A stretch of DNA of 64,000 bases from the NCBI GenBank assembly GCA_036874045.1, contig JAZBRI010000011.1, forward strand, positions 8,237,501 to 8,301,500. The letters are read 5' to 3'. Numbering within the stretch: the first letter of the stretch is position 1; each line of letters opens with the position of its first letter. This document shows positions 6,611-46,330 of this stretch, piece by piece. A program made the translations under genes and the position numbers. The stretch is from Cymodocea nodosa. Lineage: Eukaryota; Streptophyta; Magnoliopsida; Alismatales; Cymodoceaceae. The notes beneath the pieces were generated by a model that was not told the DNA's origin, did not search any database, and saw only the letters and a list, made by a program, of their open reading frames with translations.

Positions 6611-6683
6611 TTAATATGAATAGTTTTACATTGCATTTAGTCAGACATTTTTCAATACAAATATAAGTAGACGAACAATACAA

Positions 6684-13945: not shown

Positions 13946-13951
13946 GAAGAC

Positions 13952-16700: not shown

Positions 16701-16707
16701 AGTTTTA

Positions 16708-16725
16708 TGGCGCCGTTGCCAGGGA
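16708..16725 (+). other. tRNA-Asp primer binding site (ATH-2)
   Basis: TGGCGCCGTTGCCAGGGA matches the complement of the plant tRNA-Asp 3' end with one change. tRNA-Asp priming is typical of Athila-type elements. It lies 7 nt after the LTR CA end. Confidence 0.85.
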
Positions 16726-16809
16726 ATTGAATTGAATAGATATAAGCAACTATTAGAGCTGTTTCATTTTAATAGCTAGAATTGTGTGTTTTTTTCTGTA
16801 ATTGAGAAT

Positions 16810-19800: not shown

Positions 19801-21449
19801 TATGCAAGCAAAACCTTAAATGATGCTCAAGTTAATTACACAACTATTGAAAAAGAATTATTAGCTGTTGTGTTTGCTTTAGAAAAGTTTAGATCATATC
19901 TGATTGGAGCTAAAGTAATAGTATACATGGATCATTCAGCTCTAAAAGATCTAATAAAGAAAAAAGAAACTAAACCTAGATTGATCCAATGGATATTATT
20001 ATTGCAAGAATTTGATCTAGAAATTAAAGATAAAAAAGGTTGTGAGAATGTAGTAGTAGATCATTTATCAAGATTACAAATAGAAAAATCAAATATTGAA
20101 ATTAAGGATAATTTTCCTAATGAACAATTAATGACCATCAACACAATGCCTTGGTATGCAGACAGTTAATTACTTAGTTACTGGTTTAACACCTAAGGAT
20201 TGGAATAGACAGATAAGAAATTATTTTTCTCAAGAGTAAAATATTACTATTGGGAAGACCCATACTTATTTAAGAAATGTCCTGATCTGGTTTTAAGGAG
20301 GTGTGTTCCAGAAACTGAATATTCGAGCATATTGTCTTTCTATCATGACCAAGCTTGTGGAGGGTATTTTGGTTCAGGGAAAACTTCTGCAAAACTTCTA
20401 CAATGTGGGTTTTATTGGCCAACACTATTCAAAGATGCTCATAAATATTGCTTAAGTTGTTTAAGATGTCAACAAATAGGAAGAATATCAAAGAGGAATA
20501 TGATGCCTCTTAATCCTATTGTTGAGTTTGAAATCTTTGATGTATGGGAATAGATTTTATAGGTCCATTTCCTATGTCTAATCAATTTAATTACATATTG
20601 TTGGGGGTGGATTATGTATCAAAATGGATAGAAGCTATTCCTACAAAAACTAATGACAACAAAGTGGTAATTCAATTTATAAGAACAAATATATTTGCCA
20701 GATTTGGAATACCTATAGCTATTATTAGTGATAGAGGAACTCATTTCTGTAATAGAAGTTTTGAAGCCTTAATGAAGAAATATGGAGTAAACCACAAAAT
20801 TGCAACATCATATCATCTGCAAACAAGTGGACAAGTAGAAAGTGCAAACAAACAGATTAAATTAATCTTGGAAAAAGTAGTAAATCCTACTAGAACATAT
20901 TGGGCTAATAGATTGATAAATGCACTTTGGGCTTATAGAACTACTTATAAAACGATCTTAGGTATGTCACCTTTTAGGCTAGTATATGGAAAAAGTTGTC
21001 ATTTACCTGTTGAAATAGAACATAAAGCTTATTGGGCATTAAAAACTTTGAACACTAATTTAAATCAAGCTGCTAAAAATAGAAAAATGTAATTAATTGA
21101 ATTAGAAGAATTTAGAAATGAAGCTTTTTCGAAGACTGTAAGAGAAAAAGAAAAAATTAAATTTTGGCATGATAGAAAAATTATTCCAAAAAGCTTTGAA
21201 ATAGGACAAGAAGTATATCTTTATATGGCTAGACTCCATAACCATCCAGGAAAATTGAAATCTAGATGGGTAGGACCTTACATAGTTCGAAATGTTTATC
21301 CTTATGGAGCTATTGAAATTAAGAATCTTAAAAATCAGAATATATTTAAAGTAAATGGGCAAAGACTTAAACCTATTCTGAAAACACCAAAAAGCTCCTT
21401 TGGAATTATAGAAGAAGTTAGAGTAGAGGACTACTCGAGCTTTACTTAG
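16810..21449 (+). pseudogene. pol: Athila-type ORF1: zinc knuckle, PR, RT, RNase H, INT
   Basis: The best preserved gypsy polyprotein here. ATG at 16810 (MAYAYAQRF) is followed within 20 residues by the zinc knuckle CEFCNSEGHDISDC. The linker ends in the Athila-typical CVTLRSG and LLQKM...AKFLKDWC segments. Protease has DLGAGIN near 18000. RT includes RRLNPN, WVSPIH.VPKK, YRKLNAVTRKDHFPL and the catalytic FMDDF near 19290. RNase H follows ([32 protein letters not shown]). Integrase has its HHCC finger (20340-20475), [23 protein letters not shown] and a C-terminal GPYIVRNVYPYGAIEIKN tail. Damage: frameshifts near 17195, 18160 and 20545, and stops including TGA 18844, TAG 19768, TAA 20167 and TAA 21090. 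Function before decay: cDNA synthesis and integration. The gag core is not here but at 28259. Confidence 0.93.
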
Positions 21450-22072
21450 TGAGAAATCAATTTTTATGTTTATATATAAAAAAAAAAACATTAAAAATAT
21501 ATATAAAACATAAAAATCATTGCGGTTCAACTAATTGAATCCATCGGTATGACCGAAACATAAAAAATGTATATTAATTTTCAGAAAAAAAAATGTTGGT
21601 TTTACTGAAACATAGTATCGGTTCAACTGAAGAAAAAATATATATATATAAATAATAAAAAATATTTAGGTCTGATCGAAACATAGTATCAGTTAAACTG
21701 GTAAAAAAACAGAAAAACTATTCTTTGTAATATTTTTATTATTATATTTGCCTATACGGGGATTCCGTTGAGTTACGCTTAACTCAACGAGCTTACTCCG
21801 TTGAGTCTTGAGTTAGTCAACGAGCTTACTCCGTTGAGTATTGAGTTAGTCAACGAGCTTATTCCGTTGAGTTAACTGTAACTCAACGGAGTACTGTAGC
21901 TAAAACCTTGGATAAAATAGTAATAGTTGGTTCGGGAAATGACCTGATTACCTGCCTAAACTTATGGCTTATTTAAACTAAAACCTAGGGTTTTGGGGGC
22001 ATTATCCGGCAAATCATTTAGAATCTAGAATAGTAGAAATCAGAGCGATTTCGTGCTGTTGTGTAACTCCAC
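21450..22072 (+). repeat. ATH-2 post-integrase spacer with tandem and inverted repeats
   Basis: Noncoding. 21510-21710 repeats a CGGTTCAACTG / CCGAAACATA theme. 21760-21892 has CCGTTGAGTTA-type inverted repeats, including a 33-nt unit (CTTACTCCGTTGAGT plus TTGAGTTAGTCAACGAG) present twice with a diverged third copy. 21900-22070 matches ATH-1 8940-9080 inverted, the stretch just before the env-like ATG. Confidence 0.65.
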
Positions 22073-27148: not shown

Positions 27149-28258
27149 ATAGAGATTAAATTGTATTGTTCGTCTACTTGTGTAAAATTATATGAAATTG
27201 TATGATGTACTTTTAATGTAATTGATTCATATTAATGAATGTAAATTTTTCAGATGCAATTTTCATACGTGTTTTGGATGTGAAATGAATGGAATTTATT
27301 GAATATTATGTTATTGTGAAACTTTATGAATGAATATGTAACAGATTTACAATTTGCTGAATGACAAGATAAATGCTTAAAAATTTCTACATGTTGCAAG
27401 GTAAAATGTAAATTCTGCATAACAAAAAATAACCTGCAAGTTAAATCTTTATATAATGCTCAGATTTAAATTATTTTATTTAGAATGATGCATTAATGAC
27501 ATAGATTTAACTTTATTTCAGTTAGCAGAATGAAAAAGAAAAAAAGAATAGAGAGGAACTTACGAGAGTAAAACTTAGATGTTGTCAAGTGTTAACTCAA
27601 CGAAGTAAGACCGTTGAGTTAACCGTAACTCCACGAGGTCAGTAATATAATATAAAGTCACTCCGTTGAGTTATCTGTAACTCAACGAAGTTAGTCCGTG
27701 GAGTTAGCAACAGTAATCAACTGTATTCTATTGAGTTTTCTGTAACTCAACGAGGTTAGTTCGTGGATTAAGCAGAACGGTTATTCTTTTAACCACGAAC
27801 GAAACTTCGTCGGTTTAGCGGTTACCAAATTTGAAATTAGTAGTGGTACACGTACCCATATAAATAGGAACCACGATGCATGTTGCAAGCCACGTTCTTG
27901 CAACGAGATTTATTCACTTTATGGATGCGCAGTATATATATAAAATAGAATGTTATTTATGAGTTACCAGCACTTTTAAAAGAAAGGAGAATACTTTGGA
28001 GGAATTGGAAGGAGAAGCAGCTGATTCAACTTCATCCGACAACAACTATATATAGAATGGAAAACTTCAAACTGGTATGTAATTAATCTTCTGCTATTTA
28101 TTTATGAGCACATAGACTCATTCTCTAAGCACTAAACGATTAGTAAGAACACCTACCTAGGAATTTTCATTGCAAAGGAGTACTTAAAAATTTTCTAAAC
28201 TGAACTTTAACGAAATTCTTTGGGTGTAGCTAACCTTTCTTTAAAAGAGAACATAGAG
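27149..28258 (+). promoter_or_regulatory. ATH-2 spacer with hairpins and possible internal promoter
   Basis: It begins with ATTGTATTGTTCGTCTACTT, which in ATH-1 directly follows the env-like stop (6660-6686), so it is genuine Athila sequence. 27595-27775 carries a run of inverted repeats of the GTTGAGTTA / TAACTCAAC type. A TATAAATA box lies at 27859-27866. A good splice-donor-like CTG/GTATGTAATT lies near 28074. I infer an internal promoter for the gag-core ORF; only the motifs are seen. Confidence 0.45.
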
Positions 28259-29440
28259 ATGGCTGCTCCAGTAGAAAAACCATTAGGAGAGATTCTATAT
28301 CCTGAATTAATTGATGAACCTTCTTGTATTCGATTGCCAAACTTTGAGGGAGATAGGTTTGAACTGAAATCTAATTATATTAGTCAATTACCACATTTTC
28401 ATGGATTAGAAAGAGAGGATGCCCTATTATTTCCTTAGAGAATTTAACGAAGTTTGTCAAATGATGAAAATGCCGAACATGAGTATAGATGCTATTAAAC
28501 TTAGATATATCCCTTTTTCTTTAAAAGACACAGCTAAGAGATGGTTATATACTTTGTCGCTTGATTCAATTTCTACATGGACTGAATTGTGCTCTGTTTT
28601 TTTGGAAAAATATTATCCAACACATCAAACGATTAAAAAGAAGAAAGAAATATTAATGTGTAGCCAAAAACAAGGTGAATCATTCTGGAAATATTTTGAA
28701 AGATTTAAAGATTTACTGACTCAATGTCCACATCATGCAATCAGTAAAGCACAACTAATAGGTATAATTTATGAAGGCATAGATGTTTCAACGAAATCTT
28801 TATTAGAATCTACTTGTCAAAATGGATTTTTAAAATTATGTAGTGAAGAAGCATGGGCATATTTAGAGAATTTTGCGGAATAAGAACTACACATTGGGAA
28901 AATTCGGTTGAAGCTATTGCAGATAAAAGAAAATTGCTAAGAGGAATACATGAAATAGATTCCAATACTATGCCTGAGGTGAAATTAAATAAATTAACAA
29001 AGAAAATAGAAGAGTTATCATTAAATCAAAAGCTAGCAGAAAAGAATGCAAACATAAATGACTTAGATATTATTTATGCTAGAAACCAGAGAGATAACTT
29101 GGGAAATTCTTATCATCCTAATTGGAGAAATCACTCGAATTTATCTTGGAGAAACAACAATTTCCAGGGAGGAGAAAATATAAATGAGAAGAACATAAGT
29201 TATGAAGTATTAATTGAACAAGGAGCTAGAATAGAGAAATTAGAAAAGATAATCCAACAAGTAAATAATCGTCTAGAATTTATATTTGGAAATGCTGCAA
29301 TTCAAAATCAGAATAGAAATATATCACTTAGATAGAAGGAACCAATGGAAGTTAGACCTACTGGAGGATTGCCAATACAAGCTATACCTAACCTATCAAT
29401 AGAATGGTTAATGAAATTGTTACCTCTTTTGGGAGGGTAG
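28259..29440 (+). pseudogene. gag: Separate gag-core ORF (Athila-type capsid)
   Basis: Capsid-type gag of the Ty3/gypsy retrotransposon gag family. From ATG at 28259 (MAAPVEKPLGEILYPEL) it has RLPNFEGDRFELKSNYISQLP, then EFNEVCQMMK, KLRYIPFSLKDTAKRWLYTL, TWTELCSVFLEKYYPTHQT, SFWKYFERFKDLLTQCPHH, and EAWAYLENFAE. After these come a linker with PNWRNHSNLSWRNNN and a coiled coil (VLIEQGARIEKLEKIIQQV). There are single-nt frame changes near 28421 and 28880 and a TAG at 29333. In ordinary Athila elements this domain precedes the zinc knuckle at the 5' end. Here it is an independent ORF downstream of integrase, while the knuckle stays with ORF1. It is followed after about 110 nt by the SIRE-A insertion and then the F-box ORF. 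Confidence 0.85.
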
Positions 29441-29555
29441 CTGAATGAAGTAGCATATCTGAAGCAACTATTTGTATGTATATATGTTTTTTTTTATTTT
29501 TTTATAGTATCGTAGAGTTAATTTTTAACTCAACAAACTTAGTCCGTTGAGTTAT
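29441..29555 (+). other. ATH-2 spacer and SIRE-A target site
   Basis: Short noncoding stretch with a CAACAAACTTAGTCCGTTGAGTTAT hairpin arm. Bases 29551-29555 (GTTAT) are the left copy of the SIRE-A target duplication. Confidence 0.85.
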
Positions 29556-32500
29556 TGTAGGATCGTATGGCTACACAAGAGGGGGGTGAATTGTGTATCT
29601 TTAATATTTTCTAAAATATAATTGAAACTTTAAAACTCAAAAACAAGTTGAGACATTGTTTTCATAAAATCATTTTTATTCAAGGTTTCAATTACAATAT
29701 ACAATTCAATTCTCCTCAGAAATTGTAGATGCAATTATATCTCGATACCATATATCATCTAAACAATTTCATAACTACAAACAGAGAAAACTAATTTGCG
29801 GAATTTAAAACATTTCTCCTTGCTTGAGATCTTTCTTCTTCTCCTTTTTCTTCTTCAGCAATTCTTCAGTGACAAATATCTTGTCTTTCTCTGCTTCACC
29901 GAATTTACTTTCTTTTGATACTTCAAATCTTCAGCGACATAAATCTGACATTTTCTATTGTTAGGATCGGTAGACTCACCAGAGGGGGGGTGAATGGTGA
30001 AAGTGTGTAATTTTTAAGTTCTTTTGATTGTTGAAACAAATGAATCAAATAGAAGTGAAATGAGATGAATTTAAACGAATGCAAAGCAGTAAAGAAAGAT
30101 AACACACAGCAAGTTTTAGGTGGTTCCCAACTTGGCTAGTCCACCCCCAAGATTCACTTCGGCTTCACAAAGTGATTCAGCACTTACACACTTGCTTTTA
30201 AGTCAAAGCAAGAACCAACAACACAGAAGTTTTTAGGTAAAAACTTCAATAAACCAACCTCTAGAGTTTTCAGGTCAAAACTCAAACCAACAACTGAATG
30301 CAGCTTTCATGTTGAAGCCACGAACCAACAGCTTGAATCTTTCAATCAAAGTTTGGCGCACAGAGCTTTTTCTACAGTAAGTCTTTAGAGTATACTTCAC
30401 TGTTTGCAGACTTGAGTGTATTTGAAATTGGGGTGTAGCTCACTATATAAATTATATCTGTTGTGTGTATCTTCTTCTCTTAAACTCCTCATATATATGC
30501 TAAAGGCATAACGATCATATTTTTCTTTTAACGGATGTATTCTGTTGTACTTACTAAATAATCAGACCTAAATATGGTAAGTTACCGTTCTATCTGATAA
30601 TCAGTAAATAACCTTCCTAAAATCTCAAGCTTTCGGATGGTTATAAAAATAACTTACCAAAAAGAATCCATAACTTGTCGATTCATCACTCATGTTCTGT
30701 TCTTTGAGTCACGTGAGGATTTTAAGTTGCTCACGTGTAAAGTTGAATGTTCGGAGTCTTGTATTTAACTTACCGAAAGAGCTCCTAATTTTCGGATAGT
30801 TAACTACTGTAACTTACCGAACTTTCATTTAAGCCTCTAACAGCTGTTCCTTCAAAACTGCACGTGCATAAAAACATAACTTAAGTTTCGGATAGTTAAG
30901 CCATAACTCACCGAAATTCTCTTGAGATTTCGGATAGTTATCTTTCTAACTCTCCGAAAAACCCATCTGAACATCTGTCTGGAATTCTGCATGTGGGAAA
31001 ATCACTAACTTAAGTTTCGGATAGTTAAACCATAACTCACCGAAATTCTCTTAAGATTTCGGATAGTTATCTTTCTAACTCTCTGAAAACTTAAATGATC
31101 TTCTTTCTAGAATTCTACATGTGGCAATTTCTATAACTTAAGTTTTGGATAGTTATCTAACTCTCCGATAAGTCCTTTAAGCTTCCGTTCTATATTTCTG
31201 TACATGATTTATTGAATGACTTAAGTTTCGGATAGTTAGCCTTTCTAACTTTCCGATTTTCCTTTTTCTTTCGGATAGTTAACTCCATAACTCTCCGATC
31301 ATTCAACCAACTTAACTGTCTGATATAATAACTCTCCAAAGGCTTTGTAAAATTCAGATAGTTATCCTTCTAATTGTCTGATAGTCTTGCTACTATTTTA
31401 TTCTTCGAATGCTTGAACCTGTAACTGTCTGATTTTACTGTAACTTGAAAGTATTATCATCTGGAGCCTTCTCAATCTGTTTGTCTGCTTGGAAATTGTT
31501 CAAATAGCCTTCTGAACTAAAGCAGTGTAGACTTAATTGAAATACAATATGTTTCCTCACATAGGTTTTGCATTATCAAAATACTCGGGTTCTAACATCT
31601 ACTTCACTGAATTTTCTTCCACTTGAGAGATTTTTCCCGAAAAGGTGTTTTTGATCCTTGAAAAAGATTTTTCTTTTGGAGTGCAAGGATGGTTTGATCC
31701 TTGAAAAGATTTTTCATTTTGTGTGTAAGGATGGTTTGATCAACGAGAACTCTATGCCTTTTATATTGTATCTTCATTTCATGCATATCCTCCACGTTTA
31801 ATCACTACTAGTTTTCCACTTCTCCACATCTTTTCTTTTTCCTTCATCGAAACACACACGTTCTAACCTATGTTTATATTTCAAATTTCCTTTAATCATC
31901 AGTCTTTGATCTCTGAAAAATTTCTTGCAAAATAAACTTTCTCGTCCAAAAATTTTTCATCAGTGTAATAAGAAGTCATTACTTTAATGTTAACTAAACG
32001 AGTAACACAAGTATATATATATAACTTAACGACTTCCTCATGTGCCATAACTCAATGAACTAGCTTAACCTTTCTTTCGGAAGGTTAAACGATAACTCAC
32101 CGAAAATAGTTTAAGTTTCGGATAATTACGGATGTAAGTCACCGAAAAACTCTTTATATTATAAAACTAGTGAGAAACGTGTCAAGACCTGAAAACATGA
32201 CTTAAGTTACCTTTCAGATAGTTACGACTGTAAGTCTCCGAAAAACTTTAACTCACCGATTCAATAATAAACAAATGTTTTTATAATAAGAATTTTACCA
32301 CGTGCAAAAATAACAACTTAAGTTTATAACGCTAACCTAACGCATTGCCTTAGTGTTCAATATAGCAACTCAACCCATTTAGTTATGTTAATTTAACGAG
32401 TTAAACATGTGCACCTCACGTGATACAATACAACATTTGTAACTTATAATTTCACCACGTGTATAACACTAACTTAACGAGTTCGTCTCTTCTTTTACTC

Positions 32501-32881
32501 ACTAACTTAACGAGTTATCACGTGACCTATTTTAACCTTTAAGCCTCTAACTTAAGGAGTTCTCACGTGACCTCTATACAAACAAAACTCTAACTTAACG
32601 AGTTGTCTAAACATACACTATTCATGATACAGAAGATATACCTTTAAAACATATCATGCTTTTCAATAAAAACACACGTTAACTTAACGTTTAGCTAAAT
32701 GAGAAATTAATGCAACGAAACGACTAGTTATTAACTTCAGATCCAATACAGACAAGTATTTATATCAGTAAGCTTTTTTTGTATTAATTGATGATTTTAA
32801 TTTCTTTTCACAAGCAATAGTAATTGAGCAAATATGATTATTTTCATTCAGCACACATAATCAAAACAAAAATACTCAACA
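29556..32881 (-). repeat. SIRE-A 3' LTR (with nested solo LTR)
   Basis: Starts TGTAGGATCG and ends ACTCAACA; about 1.68 kb once the nested solo LTR and one target copy are removed. Its right part (32090-32880) has ACTTAACGAG, CACGTG and TAACTCACCGAAA motifs. It aligns to the shorter 5' LTR at both ends. A polypurine tract adjoins it at 32882. Confidence 0.88.
29959..31597 (-). repeat. SIRE-B solo LTR
   Basis: 1639 nt with ends TGTTAGGATC...GTTCTAACA, flanked by TCTAT (29954-29958) and TCTAC (31598-31602), a target duplication with one mismatch. Read on the minus strand it matches the SIRE-C LTR at both ends (AAAACCTATGTGAGGAAAC; CACCCCCCCTCT). No internal sequence is present, so it is a solo LTR left by LTR-LTR recombination. 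30530-31480 is an array of TTTCGGATAGTTA / TAACTCACCGAAA hairpins separated by CTTAAG and CACGTG-like motifs. 30190-30330 holds short hairpins with a conserved loop. Confidence 0.88.
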
Positions 32882-32896
32882 ATCTCCCCCTTTTTG
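32882..32896 (-). other. SIRE-A polypurine tract
   Basis: The minus strand reads AAAAAGGGGGAGAT immediately before the LTR TGTTGAG. This is the plus-strand primer for reverse transcription and a hallmark of Sirevirus elements. Confidence 0.85.
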
Positions 32897-33367
32897 ATGA
32901 TGACAAAACCATATTAAATCAATTATTAAATATGTTTAACTCAACAAAGCACTTAACTTTTAATTCAACAAACTTGTTTGTTGACTTAAGTTCACTTAAG
33001 TTTATTTCTATTGTTTGTGTAAATTTTACCTCTCAGAACTAAAACTCTCAGATGTCAATAATTATATAAGTATTAGTTTTCTAATTATCATCTGTCAGAT
33101 TACAATAACCATTTAAATAGCATCTCCTTTTATAGTATATATATGCAATTAAGATCATAATCATCTTTTTATAATATTTCTCCCCCTTTTTGTCATTAAT
33201 CAAAAAGATAATTACAGAGAATATATATATGTATATAAGAGAATTACAACAACGATTTCTGTAAACAAGAATAATAATTGAACACATTTATCGAAAAATG
33301 TATTGTTCAATGAATCAAACAAGTAATACAAACAGTACATTTTGAATTCAGAAACAAACAAAAACAG
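32897..33367 (-). other. SIRE-A 3' noncoding stretch
   Basis: AT-rich sequence between the env-like stop and the polypurine tract. A second purine tract (GGGGGAGAAAT on the minus strand) lies near 33178-33190; multiple such tracts are known for Sireviruses. No gene is seen. Confidence 0.5.
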
Positions 33368-34180
33368 TTATCGACCCCTCCTAAGTATATCACTTATAGC
33401 AGTACATATTTTATCTCCTAGATGCCTAATATCATTTCTAATGTCGTTAAGCACTACATTTAAGTTAGGAGGTAACTGGGTTTGCTGTTCTGCTTGAACT
33501 GAATAACTTTGTTGTTGTTGTTGTATATGGTCTGTATCAGGTTGTTGTTGTCGTTGAGGTTTATGCATGGCCTGGAATTTTTGCAAATCTTTGACACTAA
33601 ATGCTCTCATGCCTTTAGTTTCAGAGGGCTAGTCGGATAAAGTCAATTGGCTTGCAAGGATTCTACATACAACATCACCATAAAATAACTTTGAACTCAT
33701 ATGCTATAGTTGAGACATAAAAACATCAAACCAATTTATTTGAATTCTATTCAACAGGCCATAAGTTGCATATAAACAGCTTCTACTGACTTCCAAATTG
33801 TGTCCAACTCTCTTAAATAAATTTGCATGCAATATATTTGTAATAAACATTGCCTCTACATTCAGATTTTCCATTAATCTCATTTCAGAATATACATCTA
33901 GAATTTTTGATAAAGACTGAATGTTCCATTCCAGTTGTCTTATCATGTCAAATCTGTTGGTAACAACAACACCTTCATTCTTTAATCCTAAAACTTCAAA
34001 AATTAACTCAGGAGACAATATAAACTCCTGTTCATTTATTTGAGTTTTTAGAAAATTTCCATTCTTGACCAGATTGCTATAAAAAGCTGCAATAAGCTCT
34101 ATGTATTGCTTCCATTTTATTCCTATTGGCAAGAATTTAATGAGGCCTTGAAACTCAAACAGATCTCTTATTTCCATCAA
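33368..34180 (-). pseudogene. SIRE-A env-like ORF
   Basis: One reading frame of 270 codons from ATG 34180 to the stop at 33368, interrupted by two stops (about 33704 and 33636). Residues 1-185 form the same compact domain as the C-terminal third of the Athila env-like ORF. Shared landmarks are RDLFEFQGL, FYSNL, LSPELIFEVLGLKNEG and LLNRIQINW. A Gln-rich tail follows (residues 195-245), then a short basic end. Sireviruses are the copia lineage that carries an env-like ORF at this place. No signal peptide or membrane segment is visible, so a true envelope role is unsupported. I cannot tell whether the shared domain was passed from gypsy to copia or the reverse. Confidence 0.65.
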
Positions 34181-34199
34181 ATGTCTGAATGTTAATGCT

Positions 34200-35270
34200 C
34201 CCCCTATAAATATACTTCAAATATATTCAATCAACATACAAAATATACTTGTAGTGACAATAGATGTTAAGTATAACTATACTTTTAAATTTTCTTTTCA
34301 GAGACTTCCATTATCCTAACATCATCAAAAATGATTTCCAGAATCAATTCCTACAGTATATGAATCAAAACACAACTTTGAACTCAATGTGATTAATTCA
34401 AGGAGAATAAAAGAATGTATCTTAAATAAACGTTTTCAAAAGTACTAATGTTGATTCAATAAATCAGTAGTCATATTGGTAGAAACTATATGTGATTCAA
34501 AGATATCTGTAATTAATGAAATAACACTTCTTCTTTTTTCTTCTTTTTTTTCAAAATAGTGAATATTGATAATTTTCTTTAAAAGTTAGTTTGAAAAGCT
34601 TGAATCATACAAGAGCTTTCTAATGTACCCGTGTAATGAGCTTTCAGTCAACAATCCCAGATCTAATCAGGACCTTAGGTTGCCAGATTTAAAGAATCCT
34701 TTTTTAGGACAACAATCCTTACATACCTATCTACTCAAGTACAAAAGGCTCGTGATCAAACTGATCAATAAACTCGCAAAGATTTTCACTTTGTAAGCAC
34801 TTTTCATTTTAAGCACAGTATATATGTATTCCATTAATACAGATGTAATAAAACACAAATCTCATACAATTTTTACTTCTATGATTGTACTGAGAAATAT
34901 GAATCAGTTTCAATAAGCTTATACTTTTGATTAATAGTTTAAGATGAGTTACATATAACTTATTCTACAAGTTTAATCAATTAATTCAAATTTATGCATG
35001 ATCATATGCATTTTCCTTGATTCAAAGAAAACATTTAATCAAAATTTCAGAATGTCAGAAGTATTTAATGTTTTTCATTTACACTTCCACTTAAAATCGT
35101 AAAAACCATTAAAATTGATAAACTACTTAAAATCAATAAGATACTACTACGATTTTACAATAAATACATAGTATCTTAAGTAGTAGTTTAGATATTACTT
35201 TAGATATTTATAATAAGTATATAATATCTATGAGGTGAACAACATCATTAATAATATTTATCTTTTTATG
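34200..35270 (-). repeat. Noncoding module shared with Athila 3' regions
   Basis: Lies between RNase H and the env-like ORF of SIRE-A. 34230-35190 aligns by eye over about 900 nt with ATH-1 4740-5680, ATH-4 60480-61420 and, inverted, ATH-2 about 41230-42200. The best conserved part, 34580-34790, contains TGAATCATACAAGAGCTTTC, AACAATCCCAGATCTAATCA and CAAGTACAAAAGGCTC in the same order as the Athila copies. It is in the same orientation relative to transcription in both element types. No ORF is conserved. Confidence 0.8.
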
Positions 35271-35285
35271 TGGAGTTTAAGCATT

Positions 35286-36102
35286 TTATACATCACATAG
35301 CCTACAAATACCTAAATTTAATCTAATGTTGCAGAATGTATTTTCGTCTAGAGGTTTTGTAAATATATCAGCTAATTGATTTTTACTAGGCACAAATTCT
35401 AATTTAATTTTTCCTTTAATTATATTATCTCTTAGAAAATGATGTCTAACCGCTATATGCTTTGCTCTTGAATGTAATATAGGATTTTTGGAAAAATTTA
35501 TTATAGGACTACTGTCACAATAAATCTCAGTTGTATCATAAGATAATCCAAAATCTTCTAAAGTTTGCCTTATCCACAGAATTTGAGTGCAACACAGTGC
35601 AACAACAACATATTCAGCTTCTGTAGTAGAAAGTGCTACATAGTTTTACTTTTTACTAAACCATGACACCAAATTATTTCCCAATAATTGACATGTGCCA
35701 CTAGTACTCTTTCTATCAGATTTAGATCCTGCATAATCAGCATCAGTATATCCTATAAGATCTATTGAACTATCCTTAGAATAATACAGTCCAAAATTTT
35801 TAGTTCCTTGTATATATCTAAATATTCTTTTAATTGCAATTAAGTGTGATTCTTTAGGATTAGATTGAAATCTAGCACAAACTCACACAACAAACATAAT
35901 ATTAGGTTTACTAGCAATCAAATAAAGTAAAGAACCAATCATACTTCTGTATTTTCTTTGATCTATAGATTTTCCTATGTCATCAATATCTAACTTTAAA
36001 GTAGTACTCATAGGAGTTCCTTGAATCCTTGTATCATTAAAATTAAATTTTTAAGCATTTCATCTACATATTTTTTCTGATTTAAAAATATACCTTTATC
36101 CA
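35286..36102 (-). pseudogene. SIRE-A RT tail and RNase H remnant
   Basis: Copia RT C-terminus and RNase H. Motifs on the minus strand: GIFLNQKKYVDEMLK, SMIGSLLYL, ADYAGSKSDRKSTSG, ALSTTEAEYV, LEDFGLSYD, SKNPILHSRAKHI and QLADIFTKPLDE. It is fused without a frame change to the protease start, so integrase and most of RT are gone. Several stops are present. Confidence 0.85.
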
Positions 36103-36311
36103 TTATGACACTCAGCAAATTAAATCCTAGGTTTTCTACATATAGTACATTCGAAATAACATAAGTAGGAGTTATTTGAACATTGCCCATACCTATGATT
36201 TTATCTTTGCTTTTGTTTCCAAATGTTACACTTCCTTTCATGGTATTTGTAAAATTTTGTAATAGACTTTTCTGTCCAGTCATGTGACTTGACGCTCCAC
36301 TATCCAAGATC
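36103..36311 (-). pseudogene. SIRE-A protease, N-terminal part
   Basis: Begins with the retropepsin active site LDSGASSHMTG and continues VTFGNKSKDKIIGMGNVQI to NLLSV, typical of the Sirevirus protease region. It then jumps near 36103 into the RT tail. It processed the gag-pol polyprotein in the ancestral element. Confidence 0.85.
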
Positions 36312-36343
36312 CATTTTGATGTTGTTTTCTCCTACAACACAAA

Positions 36344-38593
36344 TTAAGAAAAACTTTTTCTTGGCACCCAATGTTGTTGAGGACTAAGTTCATGAAATGC
36401 ATATTTCTTCTTTTTGTTTAAAAATAGTTTAACATTATCATTTATATTCTTATTAGTTGTAAGTACTATTGATTTATCATTAGCTTCATACTCACATATA
36501 GCATTATTGCTTTTGCAATCATTCTTTTTGTTTTCAGATATAGTATAATCAAGACCAAACATATTTTTATAAGATGTTAATTTATTTCGGTCATGCTCAT
36601 ACATTTCAGTAAGTTCATACCAAGATTTTGTACTTGTATTAACATTTTCTGTACATACAAAATCTTTTTCTGCACAAGAATTTTTAGTTTTATCACATGC
36701 AGAATGAGTAATTGGTCTAATACCAGTGTATTGAATTACATGCTCAAGTTTTTGAATTTTCAGTTTACTACAATTGTTTGAAATTTTAGAAACATTAGAA
36801 ACTAAATTTCTAGAACAAGAAATAAGATTTTTTGAAACATTTATAGTCATGTTAGAAGTACAATTTGACAAATCACATTGATTTATATTATTACTGCATG
36901 ATTCATCCCTTGAAGTACCTACTTCTACATATTTATTACCTTGTTTCATGATAAAATGAATTTTAGTCTTAGATTTACTTGAACTGCAACTAATAAATCC
37001 TTTATTGGCTTGAGGTTCAGGATAATCAAATCCTAAGCCAAATTTATAAGACACCGCAGGGGTACTAGTTAGTTTGTTTAACTTAGTTTGACTTAAATTC
37101 CATTTCTCAATGGTAGAATTTAAATCTTGCTCTCTTAGTTTTAATTTATCTATCTCTAATTCAAGTTCATTTATATTGTTTCTCAATATTTCATTTTCAG
37201 ATTCTATCTTTAATTTTTTAGCATTTATATTCTGTATTTGTTCATGCAAGATACATTCATTAAATCTAAATTTTTGCAAATCTCTAGCATGATTTTCATT
37301 ATCACATTTAAACTTTTCTAATGTAGTAGATAGGAAACAATTTTCTTCTTCCATAATGGATGAAGATTTTCTAATATTCTTATTTTCCAGTTTACATACT
37401 TTAAGTTTTTGTAATAATGTATGATAAGCACATAATGATTCATCAAAGTTGAAATCTGAATGACTTTCAGGATCAGATATTACCTCAGACTCATCTGCCA
37501 TGAAGCACACATGAGCAACGTCTTCTAACTCTTGTTCTCCTTCTGAATGTGAAGATTTTGATGTTGATTCCTCAGATTCAGACTCTTCAGACGTGTCATC
37601 CCAAGTGACCTTCAAAGCCTTTTCCTTGTAAAACTTTTTCTGAGTTTTCTGAGCCATCTTCTTCTGATTTGTCCTACTATGCTTTTCATTTTTCCTCATA
37701 GGACAATTTGGAGAAAGATGTCCAGGTTTCTTATAGTTGTAACATATATACTTTCTAGATGAAGAATTCTTGTCATTCAGTGATTTTGACATTAAGGGTT
37801 TATCATTTTTGTTCCTTTGCTGTTTCCTAGCTTTCCATGCTTTCTTGAATTTCCTAGTTAGCAAAATCAAATTCTCGTCAGAATCAATAGATATATCAGA
37901 ATCTAAATTAATTTCGAATGCTATTTCTTTCTTCATTTTTAGTTTGTTGTGACTCAGTGATTCATTTAATTGAACTTCATAAGCTATTAAATTTCCTATT
38001 AGTTCATTCATAATATAAACATTTAAATCTCGTGATTCCTCAATTGATGTTACTTTTTGAGACCATTTAGAACTTAGGGATCTGAGAATTTTCCTCACCA
38101 AATCCTTCTGTTCAAAATTCTTTCCTAAACATTTTAAAGAGTTTATGATATCAAGAAATCTAGAAAACATCTCAGAAATATTTTTGTCTTCATGCATCTT
38201 AAAGAGTTCATACTTATGAATCAACATGTTTATTTTAGTCTCTTTAACTTGAGAAGTACCTTCATGTGAAACTTCTAATGCATGCCACACCTCATAACCA
38301 GATTTATATGCCGACACTTTACTGAACTGTTCATAACTCAATGCACAAAATAAAATATTTAAGCCCTTAGCATTCAGAGTTTCATTTTCTTTTTCAGTAA
38401 TTGTCCAAGTATTATAAGGAGTAGTTAACGAAGTATATGGTTTAGAAATCATGAACCACAACTTATGATCTATGCTTTGAAGAAAAACAGTCATCCTATA
38501 TTTCCAATATTCAAAATATATTCCATCAAATAAAGGAGGATGATTAAGATTTTGGCCTTCATATAAAGAAAAATTACCATTTCCAGTAGCCAT
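36344..38593 (-). CDS. gag: SIRE-A gag, intact 749-residue ORF
   Basis: The longest uninterrupted ORF in the window. ATG at 38593 (MATGNGNFSLYEGQNLNHPP) lies about 190 nt from the primer site. Residues 1-230 are the UBN2-type capsid region (KYRMTVFLQSIDHKLW, LFKMHEDKNISEMFSRF, RKILRSL). A zinc knuckle lies near residue 285 but reads CYNYKKPGHLSPNC: the second Cys is Tyr, so RNA binding by this finger is doubtful. Residues 340-385 are acidic and Ser-rich, and 400-500 predict a coiled coil. The tail ends WVPRKSFS just before protease. The length fits the long Sirevirus gag. The intact frame, against heavy decay elsewhere, marks SIRE-A as a recent insertion, although the element itself lacks integrase. 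Confidence 0.9.
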   Translation of the reverse strand: MATGNGNFSLYEGQNLNHPPLFDGIYFEYWKYRMTVFLQSIDHKLWFMISKPYTSLTTPYNTWTITEKENETLNAKGLNILFCALSYEQFSKVSAYKSGYEVWHALEVSHEGTSQVKETKINMLIHKYELFKMHEDKNISEMFSRFLDIINSLKCLGKNFEQKDLVRKILRSLSSKWSQKVTSIEESRDLNVYIMNELIGNLIAYEVQLNESLSHNKLKMKKEIAFEINLDSDISIDSDENLILLTRKFKKAWKARKQQRNKNDKPLMSKSLNDKNSSSRKYICYNYKKPGHLSPNCPMRKNEKHSRTNQKKMAQKTQKKFYKEKALKVTWDDTSEESESEESTSKSSHSEGEQELEDVAHVCFMADESEVISDPESHSDFNFDESLCAYHTLLQKLKVCKLENKNIRKSSSIMEEENCFLSTTLEKFKCDNENHARDLQKFRFNECILHEQIQNINAKKLKIESENEILRNNINELELEIDKLKLREQDLNSTIEKWNLSQTKLNKLTSTPAVSYKFGLGFDYPEPQANKGFISCSSSKSKTKIHFIMKQGNKYVEVGTSRDESCSNNINQCDLSNCTSNMTINVSKNLISCSRNLVSNVSKISNNCSKLKIQKLEHVIQYTGIRPITHSACDKTKNSCAEKDFVCTENVNTSTKSWYELTEMYEHDRNKLTSYKNMFGLDYTISENKKNDCKSNNAICEYEANDKSIVLTTNKNINDNVKLFLNKKKKYAFHELSPQQHWVPRKSFS

Positions 38594-38779
38594 CTTACCT
38601 TAGATTTTTCAACCTATTTGATTTTAAACAGTCTAAAAGCTTTAAAACAACTTGAGCCTTAAATCAAGAAAGTTAAATGTATGCTCAGATATTAATTTCT
38701 GTTTAAAAACAAGGAAGGTAGAATAAGCAATGATATTCAATAAGTTGATATAGATTTTATATCAAAGATTATTAACAAA

Positions 38780-38791
38780 GCTCTGATACTA
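38780..38791 (-). other. tRNA-Met primer binding site (SIRE-A)
   Basis: The minus strand reads TAGTATCAGAGC, one mismatch to the initiator tRNA-Met complement, two bases from the 5' LTR. Confidence 0.85.
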
Positions 38792-38793
38792 CT

Positions 38794-39400
38794 TGTTGGA
38801 TCGTATGGCTACACAAGAGGGGGGTGAAATAACAACTTAAGTTTGTAACGCTAACCTAACGCGTTGCCTTAGTGTTCAATATAGCAACTCAACCCATTTA
38901 CTTATGTTAACTTAACGAGTTAAACATGTGCACTTCACGTGATATAATACAACATTCGTAACTTATAATTTCACCACGTGTATAACACTAACTTAACAAG
39001 TTCGTCTCTTCTTTTACTCACTAACTTAATGAGTTATCACGTGACCTATTTTAACCTTTAAGCCTCTAACTTAATGAGTTCTCACGTAACCTCTATACAA
39101 ACAAAACTCTAACTTAACGAGTTGTCTAAACGTGCACTATTCATGATATATAAGATATACCTTTAAAACATATCATGCTTTTCAATAAAAACACACGTTA
39201 ACTTAACGTTTTGCTAAATGAGAAATTAATGCAACGAAACGACTAGTTATTAACTTCAGATCCAATACATATAAGTATTTATATCAGTAAGCTTTTTCTA
39301 TATTAATTGATGATTTTAATTTCTTTTCACAAGCAATAGTAATTGAGCAAATATGATTATTTTCATTCAGCACACATCATCATAACAAAAATACTCAACA
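38794..39400 (-). repeat. SIRE-A 5' LTR, internally deleted
   Basis: 607 nt, TGTTGGATCG...ACTCAACA. It joins the first about 35 nt (to GGGGGGTGAA) directly to sequence that in the 3' LTR begins at about 32310, so about 1.07 kb of LTR is missing. It is followed by the right target copy GTTAT at 39401-39405. Confidence 0.9.
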
Positions 39401-39487
39401 GTTATGCCTTAACTCCACGAGGGTGTGCAGTATCATGTTAATTTTTGTCTCTGCTAAATTTTTATTTGTGTTTTACAGAATCGACAA

Positions 39488-40627
39488 ATGGAATTGATGT
39501 AATTATCATTGGATGCACTAAGGGAAGTACTAAGTAACTTGTCAGCTAAAGATCTGTCTAGGCTGTGTTGTGTATCAAAGGAAATTAAAGACTGTATTGA
39601 AGAAAAATATTTTCAGGGACTACAAGCTGCAAAAATGACTAAGATTAGAGATGGATTCATATGGAGGTCATTTAATCGTAGTTCAAATACTCATGAATAT
39701 CTGGTTATGGAAGAAAATACTGGAATTCCACCCAATGCATTAGAAGGAATAAATCATATTATAGGGATAGATGAAGGATTAATCATATACAAGATGAGAC
39801 CAAGGTATGCAAGTTTATTATTACTTGATATTTTGATAAGAAATCCTATAACAGGAGAATAATGGAATATAGGAAGACCTAATAGATTTGAAGCACCAAC
39901 TGTAAATTGTGGGTCAGCTTTAATATTTTCTGATAAAAATTCTGCAATTCCTGAAAAATTATATTATTGGAGACCTACAGGAAATTAGGGTGAAGATTTA
40001 CACTTAAGTGTGTATAATTTTCTGAACAGATCTTGGAAAGAAAATATTATGATATATCTAGGATAGAAATCATTAATTAACCAAACACATGTCATACTTG
40101 ATGGATATATATATCTAGTCATGGAGATATCATTAGCATATGGATCTTATTTATACATAGTGAGCATAGACAGTTATGATGAATATATAGAAATTTTACC
40201 TGTACCGAGTGAAATAGCTAAACCACCATCTGCGGAATTTAATGAAATTCAAATAGGAATGTGGTATAATGAAGAAGATGATCCTACTTTATGTCTGATA
40301 AGATGGTGGGATGAACTGATGAAATTTCAAATATGGATTATGGAAGACATAAATGAATGGAAGTGGGAAGAGGAGTATATTGAAATAGATGTAGAAATAG
40401 AAACTGCTACATTACCCTGGAACCAAAAAGGATCCCTTTCTGCATTACATATCATTAATGGTAATACACTCGTATTTGGAATTTATAATATATTACATGT
40501 TTACAAATTAAGAAGGAACAAGAACTGCATTAAAACAAAATTAATAGCAAGAAGAACTATGCCTAAAAAGTTTGCTTGGACTGATACATTTATTCCATTT
40601 GTTTCTACTTTTCAATCATGTTCTTAA
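39488..40627 (+). pseudogene. F-box protein ORF carried by Athila-type element
   Basis: One frame of 379 codons plus stop, ATG at 39488, with in-frame stops at 39500, 39860, 39986 and 40064 and no frameshift. Residues 8-45 are a plant F-box (LSLDALREVLSNLSAKDLSR, then LCCVSKEIKDCI), the segment that binds SKP1/ASK in SCF ubiquitin ligases. The rest resembles F-box-associated domains: NPITGE, HVILDGYIYLV, EILPVPSEI, IRWWDEL.KFQIWIMEDINEW and a conserved end MPKKFAWTDTFIPFV. An AG acceptor after a T-rich tract (TTTGTGTTTTACAG) lies just upstream at 39479, so the message may be spliced. Partial copies occur in ATH-1 (6373-6610) and ATH-4 (62019-62593), each followed by the same 3' region. It is therefore part of the element, not a host gene hit by insertion. 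Substrate unknown. Confidence 0.85.
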
Positions 40628-42520
40628 GCTTTGATTTTGTGTGTTTAATGTTGTGTGTATTCTGCATTTATTGTTAAAAAAAAAAATTTATAGTTTTCAT
40701 TTTTATTTTATAAAAGAAAAAAAAAACAAAATATCAATCCAGTTTGTTAGTATCTGTTCTGGGAAACCAACTGGCTTGCTTGTGAGCCACCAAAGGCATA
40801 AGAGTCTGGGTTTCACACAAGACACTGATTTATTAATATCTGTTAAATGTTATTTTGTTTTATAGTTTGCTTTTATCTGTGAATGAAAAGTTTTTCAGAA
40901 TCAAAAATCGGAATATGCTGAAGGAGATACAAATGAAACAAGGTATGTAACTAATTACTCATCCTCAATTTTAAATCAAGCAAAACTGTATTCATGCCTG
41001 CTACAATTACTGTACTTATTGTCAAATCTTTTACATTGAGGACAATGCAAAATGTTGGTATGGGGGGAGGTAATTGAAGTAACACCCATGTAAATTTGTT
41101 AATTAAAGAAATTAAAATGGTACTGCAAAGTTGTGGAAATTGAAAATTTTTATGAACTTGCTGTAACTATCTGATAAATGAGACTGTAAAATTTTTATAA
41201 ACTGCTTGATTGTTATATTTAGAAGGCTATATGAGATGCTATTGAATTTACTATTTATGCAAATCTAGATATAGTATATTATGTTTTTCTGAATTTCATG
41301 AGTTTAATAGTTTCACGATTTTAAAATGAAATCAGAATGCTTAATGAAAAAAATCAGTAAATTATCTGAAGTCCTAAAAGAGCTGAGATGTGAATTCTAG
41401 ATTAAATGAAACACATATGATTAAAGATACATTTAATTTGACTGATTGAACTTGTAGAATGATTTATGTGTAGATCTTATTAAACTACAGAAAAAGTATG
41501 AGCTTATTGTTATGGATTCATATTTTCAGTAACTGATATAAGCAGGACTATATGAGATTGGCATTTTACCACATCTGTATTATTGAAATACATACATATA
41601 TAGTATGTGATTAATGTTTTGTTTTGTGGTTGTAGTTTGAAGAAAAAAAAAAGAGAGGAAATTTTGAGAGTTTATTGACTTGTTTGATCACGAGCCTTTT
41701 GTACTTGAGCAGATAGGTATGTAAGGATTGTTGACCTGAAAAAGGACTCTTAAAATCTGGCAACCTAAGATCCTGATCAGATCTGGGATTGTTGACTGAA
41801 AGCTCGTTACATGGGTACATTAGAAAGCTCTTGTATGATTCAAGCTTGTCAAATTAACTTTTAAAGTACGAAAATATATATATATATATATACATATATT
41901 GTTCTGAAAAGATACAGGTGTTTTGTGAAATACAGATATCTTATGAATCGAGTATATTTTCTGTTATCTAGAATTACTGAAATATGAATCTGGAATTGAC
42001 TTTTGAAGTTGTTTAAGGGAGATACAATTCTTTATTCTACTTGTCTTAATCAAATTGAATTGGATTGTACTCTGATTCGTATGTTGTTGAAATTTCTTCT
42101 AGAAATCTTATTGGAAAATTTAGGATGAAAGATGATGAAAAGAAGAATAAACGATAATATAATTAACACCTATATGATGATGATATACTTGGTATGTAAT
42201 TTACATATATTCTAAGTATATTTGCAGGTTGATTACTGAAACATATAGAATATATTTTTATGCTAAACAGAAGAAAAACAAAAGGGGAAGAATTAATTCT
42301 AGCACTTTTAAAGACCAATTAATTAGATCTTAGTTTGCTAAGGGACTAGAAAAATTTAGGTATGGGAGAAGTGTTTAGAATGAAATAGTGCATATTATTA
42401 ATAGTTAAATGATGGTTAATTGCATAATATTTAGCTTATCATATAAGAATTAAGCCATTATGTTATAATTGCACTGTTATATACATTAATTGAGGAATTT
42501 ACTTAATGTGGGGGAATTAA
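40628..42520 (+). repeat. ATH-2 3' noncoding region and polypurine tracts
   Basis: Noncoding. After the F-box stop comes a conserved segment (about 40745-40850). Next is a possible mini-exon bounded by TTTTTCAG (about 40905) and AAGGTATGTAA (about 40945), then the Athila signature CATTGAGGACAATGCAAAATG with a GGGGGGAGG run (41036-41072). The block shared with SIRE-A follows, with its conserved core at 41650-41850. TGTGGGGGAATTAA at 42507-42520 directly precedes TGTTAATTTAG and is my candidate polypurine tract for the LTR start. Confidence 0.65.
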
Positions 42521-44581
42521 TGTTAATTTAGTACATTTATGAACTGTCGGTAAGTTGCAAGCTGTGAAATTCTTAAGTATCCGAATTTTCTGATATTTCG
42601 GATAGTTATGTTTAAATTGCCGAACAGTTATGTTTTGAGAGAATATTTTATTATTTCCTAAAGTACACGTGTTGAAACCATAATGAATGACTTAAGTGAA
42701 CTTCCGATGAGTTATCTATAACTATCCAAAATTGCAGCTGAGCATCGGATAGTTATCCCTGTAACTCTCCGAAATCTCTTTTTATTTAGAAAATAGCTGA
42801 GGACACGTATCATGTTCTAGGAAAGTGACTTAAGTGGATTTTCGGTGAGTTAGCTGTAACTATCCGAAATACATCTGAGCATCGAATAGTTAGACCTGTA
42901 ACTCTCCGAAATGTTATTTTATGATTAAACTACTGCTGACACGTGTCGAGATCTAGTAGATTTACTTAAGTTATATATCGGTGAGTTTTTTGTAACTATC
43001 TGAAATGCATCTGAGCATCGGATAGTTAAGTTTATAAGTATCCGAAATGCACCTGAGCATCGAATAGTTAAATTTATGCACGTGTTGAATTTAAATGCTT
43101 TAGAATATCACGTGAGATACACATGTTTAACTCGTTAAGTTAGCATAACTGTACACGTTGAGTTACATGAATATTACACTAAGGTAACGCGTTATGTTAG
43201 TAGCTTATTTATTTATATTTTCTAATATGCCACTATAGCGGTTGTAGAAACAGACAGTTGGAATAGAAAAACCACGTTTGCGTGTATCACGTAGGAATTC
43301 AATCACGTAGGGAGAAGAAAGCATCACCGTTGATATGAATGAAGGAAATCCAGCTGACCATTCAAGCAGAAGTAGTTACTACTGAAGAAATATAAAAGAA
43401 AAGAAGAAAAAAAAGAAGAGGTGTGTGATCGATGGGCGGACAGTGTCCGTAGAGAAGGATCAGCATCGCAATTCTCTGAAGTACCATACCAACCATCATC
43501 ATCACCATCACCACACCATAATCACCAACCATCGGAGGTCTGTGAGGATACTTGCCTGATGTCGGGTTGATTCCGAGCCAAACACAGTGCCTAACAATCA
43601 CTGTGAGGAGTGATCACGTCACGGGAAGGGAAGCCATTTTTACCAAGTGTCGACTCATATTTCAGGCGATCGTAAAGCTTTTAGCCTTGGCTTCGGGTTG
43701 ATGCCTGCATGTTGAAGAGGAGATCATCTTGCAATTCTGGACTCGCGATTCTATAGGGAGAGGAGACAAAATTGTAAGTGGTTTAATTTTTAGTGGTGTA
43801 ATCGCATTGCAAGTATTGTTGGAAGTATTTACTGTCAAGTGAGATTACTTTACATTTCACCTATCGCCCATTTCCATATTCATATTAAAACAAAAATACC
43901 AAAAACAATTTATCTATGTTTGTATGTTGTATTTGAGTGTTGTATTGTTTGTGTTGTATCGTGATTAATGTTATCTTTGTCAGTGTTGTGATTGTTTTAT
44001 GTTTATTTTAGTATTACAGTTTACTGAAATTGGTTCGTTCAAAAGACTTAAAGATTTTAATGGTTATTGTTTGAATTATCTGGATGTTAGTATTGCTCAA
44101 TGATAAATCCAATGTTAACTAACATTAAAGAGCTTAATTGATGTTATTTACAATCTATGGAATCGCCCAATGGTTGTCTAAATTCCTCTATAAATAGCAG
44201 TATTAAAAAGAAAAGGCAGGCTTGTGGAGTTAACTTAAGTCCACGAGGTTAGTCCGTTGAGTTATCCATAACTCAACGAACTTAGTCCGTTGAGTTAGCT
44301 GTAATTCAACGGAGAGCTTATTGAATATATAAATTTGATTTTAACAAGCAAATAGTTCTCAAGTTCATCAGCAATTCCCTATGAGATCGACCTGTACTTG
44401 CACACTAATACAATAGACACTATGCACTTGCACTTAAAGTTCAAATTGGACTTAATATCTAAATTGTATTAAAGGTTGTTTGTTTACTTCTAAAAGAAAG
44501 AATAGGCATAAAGATAAATTAACTAAGTAAAACAGAAGTAACAAATCCAAGTTTTTCTAATGTAGTGCTGGGAAAACCTAA
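42521..44581 (+). repeat. Athila LTR shared by ATH-2 (3') and ATH-3 (5')
   Basis: The most complete Athila LTR here, about 2.06 kb from TGTTAATTTAG to GGGAAAACCTA, lacking only the last few nt. 42590-43150 is an array of CGGATAGTTA / TAACTCTCCG inverted repeats with CACGTG motifs. TATAAAAG lies at 43391-43398, a CAT/CAC microsatellite at 43494-43525, and CCGTTGAGTTA pairs at 44222-44315. The left boundary is inferred from the polypurine tract and is uncertain. What follows after SIRE-C is the beginning of another ORF1, so this LTR also serves as the 5' LTR of ATH-3. Confidence 0.65.
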
Positions 44582-46330
44582 ACAGATATGATAGCTCAGC
44601 AAAAGATCAGAAAGTAGATGAACAGATGGAGAGAGTTCTAGAAGATACTACTATAGAGCTACAGGAAAATCAGACAATTACAGGTCTAAGTATCCGAAGA
44701 ACAAGTTTAAAGCAGCAGCAATACTATCGGATAGTTAGAAGAATAACTATCCAAAATTATAAAGCCTTTAGAGAGTTATGAAAGGTAGTTGATTGAATGA
44801 TCGGAGAGTTAAGGAGTTAACTATCCGAAAGCAAAAAGAAAATCGGAAAGTTAGAAAGGCTAACTATCCGAAACTTAAGTCATTCAATTAACCACGTGCT
44901 GAAATTCAGAACAAAAGCTTAAAGGATTTTTCGAAGAGTTAGGAAGATAACTATCCAACTTTTTCGGTGAGTTACAGGTATAACTTTCTGGAACTTAAGT
45001 TATCCTATTACGCACGTGCAGAATGGAGAAGACGGTAGTTAAAAGCTTAAAAGGAAAAATGGTAGAGTTAGATAACTATCCAAAATTTGAAGAGAGTTTC
45101 GGTGAGTTACAGTTTAACTATCCGAAACTTAAGTCCTTGAATTTCCCACATGCAGAAATCCAAACAGAAGCTTAAAAGGAAAATCGAAAAGTTACTGCAG
45201 ATAACTATCCGAAATCTTGAAGCGTTTCGGTGAGTTACAAGTATAACCATCTAAAACTTAAGTTAGTCTTTTATGCACGTGCTGAATTGAAGCAATCAGA
45301 AACTTAATGGAGGGTTACTGTAGCTAACTATCCAATAGTTGAGTTACAGTTCGGTAAGTTACAGCTACAAGTATCCGATTGAATGACAGCTCGCATTGTA
45401 TGATCTAGAATCCTACATGGTAGAAAGACTTAAGTGATCTTTCGGTGAGTTACAAACATTCTTTGGAGAGTTACATAGCTAACTATTCGAAAGGTTAAGA
45501 AAATCGGAAGGATATCTTGAAATATCTTTCTGAATGGTAACTTACCGTATTTGGGACTGAAGTCAAATCAAGTACAGTAGAATAAATCCGTTGAGGAGAA
45601 AATATGATCATTGGATATTCAAGCATATATACAGTCAGATCATTCAGTATTTAAAAAGAGCTTACAAGTGAGATTACAGATACAATTACATACAGAGATA
45701 CAGTATACATTGCAGATCAATTACTAATATAGAAGAAAGCTCAAATTCAGTTCAATAAAGAATCGATTGAAAGCTGGATTTACAAGAAGATTCTTAAAGC
45801 TCTCCATGTGTTGAAAGTCTAATACAAGAATGATCATTTGGTTAGTAGCTACAACCTTAAAGCTTCATTTAGTTGTTGGTTTGAGTTTCGACCTAAAAAC
45901 TCAAGAGGTTGGTTTTCTGGAGTTTATACCTGAAAACTTCTAAGTGTTGGTTTTCTAGAGTTTATACCTAAAAACTTATGAGTGTTGGTTTCTAGAGTTT
46001 ATACTTGAAAACTTCTGAGTATTGGTTTTCTAGAGTTTATACCTGAAAACTTCTATGTGGTTGGTTCTTGCTTCGACCTAAAAGCAAGTGTGTAAGTGTT
46101 GAGACACTTAGTGAAGCCCAAGTGACCCTTGGGGGTGGACTAGCCGAGTTGGTGAACCACCTAAAATTCTCTTGTGTTTCTTACCTTTATTTCCGCTGTG
46201 CATGATATTTTTATCTGATTATTACTTGTGCAAACTGATTAATCAAATTAGTTAGTAAAGTGAAAAATAGGCTTAAATTCACACTATTCTCCATTCACCC
46301 CCCCTCTAGTGAAGCTATTCGTTCCTAACA
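44582..46330 (+). repeat. SIRE-C 5' LTR, 5'-truncated
   Basis: Aligns to 49485-51178. 44690-45540 is an array of TCGG(A/T)(G/T)AGTTA / TAACTATCCGA hairpins, with CTTAAG and GCACGTGC motifs between units. 45890-46095 is a tandem array of about 38-nt units (GTTGGTTTTCTAGAGTTTATACC...GAAAACTTC). It ends CCTAACA at 46330. Confidence 0.88.

Follow-up and report, generated by a model that had tools for sequence, protein, structure and literature searches.

Extra open reading frames (ORFs) of plant long terminal repeat (LTR) retrotransposons mostly lack known domains (PMC6317226, PMC9289625), and domain matches, tabulated in a supplement, exist for 21.4% of the proteins from extra ORFs (PMC6317226). 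Ty3/gypsy elements of the OTA superclade and Athila with extra ORFs combine LTRs, reverse transcriptase (RT), RNase H and integrase with an extra sense frame between pol and the 3' LTR and a long noncoding 3' part (PMC6317226, PMC7264820). The same plan is found in an element that lies in a 64,000-nucleotide stretch of Cymodocea nodosa contig JAZBRI010000011.1 at positions 8,237,501-8,301,500 (the window), and no chromodomain or additional RNase H was seen in the pieces scanned. Unlike them, its extra frame is an F-box gene, its gag capsid lies in an intron behind pol, and a further frame, ORFX, lies ahead. Overall, it appears probable that this high-copy Ty3-type LTR retrotransposon has a standing gene for an F-box protein, which would be made from a spliced message and would act through SKP1/ASK and an SCF ubiquitin ligase on a host target.

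Splicing also expresses a downstream frame in barley Bagy2, which has an envelope-like frame and a spliced message, and in Ogre, with an intron between gag-protease and RT (PMC7264820, PMC6317226). In contrast, the intron here holds gag, the product is an F-box protein, and splicing is deduced from intron-less copies. Orchid Ty3/gypsy elements with an N6-methyladenosine demethylase-type domain are likewise a plant LTR family that kept a functional-looking cellular domain, albeit another domain with another function (PMC9289625). Polerovirus P0 and crinivirus p22 are F-box-like silencing suppressors (PMC6593998, PMC6784205), and thus parasite-borne F-box-type proteins in plants; the present protein is a full-length F-box protein of 379 residues or more, and no sequence relation to them was found, no search aimed at one having been made. 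VANC anti-silencing proteins of VANDAL transposons (PMC5735166) would be a parallel in transposon counter-defence if the target is silencing, whereas VANDAL is a DNA transposon and VANC acts on methylation via sequence motifs and is not known to use SCF. In nematodes, F-box genes are fused to a Tc1/Mariner helix-turn-helix domain (PMC12062965), so that F-box and mobile-element parts are again joined; there, however, a host gene took a transposon domain, while here the element holds the F-box gene. No LTR element carrying a gene for an F-box protein came to light in a search of open-licence papers, supplements aside, and the term 'F-box' is absent from the main texts of PMC7264820, PMC11963269, PMC6317226 and PMC9289625. 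Since the domain matches of PMC6317226 sit in its supplement, an earlier case may have gone unnoticed.

The frame and its domain are as follows.
39488..40627, + strand: F-box frame, 379 codons and a stop, with four in-frame stops in the window copy
39500..39610, + strand: F-box domain PF00646, profile match, residues 5-41 of the frame

A first-pass annotation of this DNA had described a 379-codon frame with four stops, no frameshift and an N-terminal F-box. Re-reading of 39488-40627 (+) gave the same frame, and PF00646 matches it with E=1.1e-7 at 31.9 bits against a cut-off of 20.5. The match is stronger in the stop-free copy L017 (E=2.3e-10), and nine of the eleven rows of alignment A2 also matched; the remaining two are partial sequences that lack the N-terminus. 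The claim that each of the four stops arose by a single transition is not quite right, since at one of them no single transition leads to the residue present in the ten stop-free copies. The proposed F-box-associated body was not confirmed, since PF07734 (FBA_1) gave E 0.009-0.04, under its cut-off. PDB sequence searches returned no match at E up to 1 for a 10-row alignment, and for an 11-row alignment a single match at chance level (E 0.05). The P0-SKP1 interaction stabilises P0 and is not directly required for suppression in one virus (PMC6593998), so it may be asked whether the F-box-like part here binds SKP1 for stability only, with the protein's work lying elsewhere. This seems very unlikely, since the strongest match among related frames (E=9.3e-12) scores as a full F-box and not as the motif alone.

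The frame is not confined to one place. The first-pass annotation had also reported two partial copies in the window, and both were seen in a self-comparison, each followed by the same 3' sequence.
6373..6622, - strand: ATH-1 remnant of the F-box frame, then the same 3' region
62019..62595, - strand: what remains of the F-box frame in ATH-4, used as seed for the second subfamily

The genome searched comprises 374.6 Mb in 28 contigs. The window frame, with X at its stops, gave 108 scored places among 7006 first-look candidates; besides the window copy itself, 107 match at 90-94% identity over nearly the full frame length. Since all 108 match nearly the full frame, it is not a chance ORF, and 31 of them are without an internal stop. 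For the ATH-4-type frame, 5563 candidates yielded 150 scored places, namely ATH-4 itself and 149 others at 85-93%. The two sets share no place, and no ATH-4-type place lies within 2 kb of the first set; together at least 258 distinct places on 22 of the 28 contigs carry the frame, the counts of both subfamilies being lower bounds. When the noncoding stretch 3' of the F-box was used as the query, 40 places and one fragment were obtained, of which eight places, including the window copy, overlap the 108; this rough recapture suggests a total of several hundred copies. No host donor gene of the F-box was found, the frame-based searches returning element copies first.

The copies lie in the element. 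Thirty best-scoring copies were read (L009-L038, L009 being the window copy): the element 3' region directly follows the F-box in 30/30, and element sequence directly precedes it in 29/30; only in the window copy does the copia insertion take that place. Among 20 downstream stretches, a same-strand LTR was reached in 18, while L040 had a reversed LTR only and L057 none. The LTR ends in CCCAAACA in 15 of 17 copies (L047 and L049 deviate in the last two bases), and in L043 the LTR end continues into the primer site. Because these thirty copies were the best F-box scorers, a second sample of seven was drawn by noncoding DNA. Seven places that the F-box search had also returned, the window copy and a place with a split match were set aside, so that this sample leans towards decayed copies. 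The frame was present in all seven: whole and ungapped in L061, L063 and L067, whole with a one-base gap in L066, and partial within the fetched stretch in L062, L064 and L065. The view of the F-box gene as part of an element family is thus borne out by the copy contexts (30/30, 18/20 and 7/7), and none of the thirty copies lies outside the element. Of the three outcomes that the first-pass annotation had named as refuting its idea (a frame mostly outside such elements, descent of the copies from one segmental duplication, no F-box in a profile search), none was obtained. It has practically no probability that a host F-box family was instead spread by segmental duplication together with nearby retrotransposons. 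L051 and L052 are such duplicates with a common flank; the sequences flanking the other LTR ends among the 17 differ, the places are scattered over most contigs, and the position within the element is identical in all copies read.

The arrangement of the window copy is listed below, in order along the + strand.
15422..16700, + strand: truncated LTR, 94% identity to 43302-44584, probably the same element's 5' LTR
16708..16725, + strand: primer-binding-site-like TGGCGCCGTTGCCAGGGA, which we take to match tRNA-Asp
16780..21489, + strand: pol region, with CCHC and protease by eye, RT and integrase, and no capsid core ahead
27157..28056, + strand: stretch from ORFX to the short exon, TATA-like ATAWAAA near 27858, putative promoter
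28057..28074, + strand: short upstream exon, its coding end from the start codon up to the splice donor, joined to the F-box frame in 8/30 copies and in frame with it after splicing
28075..39478, + strand: intron-like GT..AG stretch, about 1.56 kb without the copia insertion, absent to the base in 8/30 copies
28259..29335, + strand: gag capsid-core region, frame-broken in the window copy
29556..39400, no strand assigned: composite copia-type insertion separating gag from the F-box, with target-site duplication GTTAT at 29551-29555 and 39401-39405
40628..42371, + strand: element 3' noncoding region, purine-rich at its end
42372..44584, + strand: LTR behind the F-box, TGTTT..AAACA, about 2.2 kb

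The start of the last LTR was set by a solo LTR in L039, and an earlier candidate start at 43195 was dropped. The frame had been placed between a gag core and the element 3' region. PF03732 (Retrotrans_gag) was found upstream of it at about 28506-28781, and in copies other than the window gag joins the F-box region directly at the copia insertion point; therefore, that placement is correct. The order is unusual, with the capsid core placed after pol and ORFX, whereas the frame at 16700-18843 opens with a CCHC knuckle and a protease motif (both by eye), followed by RT. This frame directly follows the LTR and primer site and is without a capsid core, and the same joint occurs in a second window copy and in L042. 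The capsid frame is therefore behind pol. Upstream stretches of two further copies, L059 (ahead of the unspliced L013) and L060 (ahead of the intron-less L016), have integrase, ORFX and then the 27157-28000 stretch; L059 also holds the short exon, and the run of L060 continues in L016. From LTR to LTR, the order is primer site, CCHC-protease-RT-RNase H-integrase, ORFX, the promoter-like stretch, the short exon, the intron with the gag capsid frame, the F-box exon and the 3' noncoding region. We know of no element with a gag capsid frame behind pol.

With LTRs, a primer site and RT, RNase H and integrase arranged as in Ty3, this is a Ty3-type LTR retrotransposon, and membership in Athila is consistent with the data. 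An additional (archaeal-type) RNase H separates Tat from Athila, and only RT_RNaseH profiles matched in the pieces scanned, which cover part of the region. The Athila ORF-1 domain PF03078 was not among the matches in profile scans of element pieces. This domain is present in 16% of Athila elements (PMC6317226), and since it is rare in the lineage its absence weighs little against Athila.

Eight of the thirty copies (L014, L016, L019, L022, L024, L025, L026 and L034) lack, to the base, a GT..AG stretch of about 1.56 kb that opens with GTATGT (after 28074), closes with TTTTACAG (before 39479) and holds the gag capsid frame. In all eight, the join gives MESF(K/R)L with a start codon in frame with the F-box, and the donor is present in 4/4 unspliced copies found by pattern to reach it (window, L033, L046 and L059). 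A TATA-like ATAWAAA, a putative promoter, occurs about 200 nt before the start codon in 12/12 copies looked at, the window included; TATAAATA is exact in the window copy alone. In a tree of the thirty copies, the intron-less ones occupy at least three separate places: L014, L022, L026 and L034 fall in a clade of support 1.0 that also holds unspliced copies, L016 groups with L019 (1.0), and L025 stands beside the unspliced L032 (0.98). L024 takes a fourth, weakly placed position. The simplest cause would be repeated reverse transcription of spliced genomic RNA, and recombination that spread one such event is possible. Such spliced RNA would be genome-like, since the intron-less L016 has pol and ORFX upstream. 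An ordinary deletion carried around by recombination or template switching could appear to fit the nearness of four of the eight copies in the tree and the weak placement of L024. It is nevertheless highly improbable, since both edges are exact splice consensus with an in-frame start in 8/8 and L025 pairs with an unspliced copy. Neither this splice signature nor the capsid frame behind pol within the intron was part of the first-pass annotation.

The frame has been maintained during the divergence of the element. The eight best PF00646 matches were taken from 150 scored of 4219 genome candidates. Seven of these are element-borne, with 57-84% identity to L017 and adjoining gag, the 3' region or an LTR; L005 is the sole ordinary host gene. 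Open pieces, taken without alteration, gave 28 between-subfamily pairs. The nonsynonymous to synonymous ratio (dN/dS) is 0.18-0.45 in 26 of these, while simulated neutral change gave mean ratios of 0.80-0.94; the upper bootstrap bound is below 0.8 in 26 of the 28. Without codons 1-45, 9/10 pairs remain at 0.30-0.49. Gag pieces of the same copies gave 0.13 (L008) and 0.25 (L003). The F-box frame was thus under purifying selection during the divergence of the element lineages, looser than on gag. A ratio of about 0.45 among the thirty best-scoring copies was not used as proof, as those copies were selected by F-box score. The extra ORF is therefore present across copies and subfamilies and under selection, and since between-subfamily dN/dS is low and the frame is kept across copies, it is a standing gene of the element and not a passenger.

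Several points weigh against a standing gene with an SCF role and a host target. Selection of the between-subfamily copies was by F-box score, and the pairs are not independent, as they share sequences. Two pairs reach 0.60 and 0.61 (L003-L006a and L003-ATH4) and, without codons 1-45, L006a-L003 reaches 0.77; L003 dN/dS is inflated because its frame shifts inside the compared stretch. For the seven copies chosen by noncoding DNA, the nonsynonymous/synonymous ratio over neutral expectation is 0.89 (bootstrap 0.60-1.36). Profile scans of the window frame, L017 and alignment A2 assigned the body to no firm family, and fold comparison was given up because of the low quality of the two AlphaFold models (mean pLDDT 34.8 and 38.1). 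Neither the frame, its stops replaced by X, nor ten stop-free copies had scored relatives in the protein database; for the integrase as control, 7976 candidates were scored and 7846 of them were relatives, with named plants as the source of many, and plant proteins are therefore represented in it. Both the putative spliced RNA and the predicted F-box protein are deduced from genomic DNA. Young copies decay about neutrally, as would be expected if a host F-box gene had been captured once and hitch-hiked unused, and captured gene pieces are known in LTR elements (PMC7264820). Such a passenger has little probability and is contradicted by the between-subfamily selection, by the frame kept in all subfamilies and by the stop-free places (31/108).

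A standing F-box gene can potentially be described as working as follows. Position, copy number, between-subfamily purifying selection and the exact GT..AG absence in some copies are the parts of this proposal read from sequence. Element RNA would be partly spliced, with the unspliced RNA giving Gag and the spliced RNA giving the F-box protein from the upstream start codon. Since it would be made as a spliced alternative to Gag, the F-box gene looks like an accessory gene. Binding to the host SKP1/ASK subunit, and thereby entry into an SCF ubiquitin ligase, is predicted by the domain; beyond this, the faster-changing body may present a target, for which a host factor limiting the element is the likeliest candidate. 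A host target is the favoured reading, with silencing factors, which the first-pass annotation had in mind, as one candidate class among several. It is rather unlikely that the protein instead regulates the element itself, by targeting its Gag, integrase or RNA-protein complex or by serving particle maturation, with no host target. A product of a putative spliced alternative to the Gag message would suit such feedback, while the body evolves faster than gag, which fits a changing host target better. A more far-reaching form of the host-directed reading is tentative: a retrovirus-like two-message programme, in which Gag would come from the intron-borne capsid gene behind pol and the spliced F-box protein would commandeer SCF against a host restriction or silencing factor, as the transposon counterpart of P0 and retroviral accessory proteins.

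In this element the extra ORF combines a recognisable domain, whose biochemical role is known, with element-level selection and a splice signature that predicts the message to the base; how a plant retrotransposon acts on its host becomes directly testable. If the host-directed reading is true, the element may steer host protein disposal. Since 7/8 of the best-scoring F-box matches are element-borne, element genes may be among the F-box genes counted in such genomes.

Further features of the window concern ORFX and the repeats. The C-terminus of ORFX in L059 (3243-4016) is weakly like Transposase_32 (PF20167, E=1.1e-5, under the cut-off).
6690..8930, - strand: ORFX of ATH-1, decayed

Rfam and tRNA scans of the 64-kb window gave no matches. 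Two LTRs of the F-box element family stand head to head at 15402-15422, giving an 8.9-kb inverted pair (10947-19707, 84% identity). Inside the copia-type insertion, 34208-35081 resembles the element 3' noncoding region (73-77% identity). TAACTNNNCGA occurs 100 times in the window, against 1.2 expected from shuffles (largest 5), and clusters within LTRs and noncoding DNA of families that seem to be unrelated (30671-32601, 42598-43142, 44727-45490, 49630-50392, 27593-27753 and 9174-9235); a common host factor site or a VANC-like target array is a possible arrangement that would explain these clusters.
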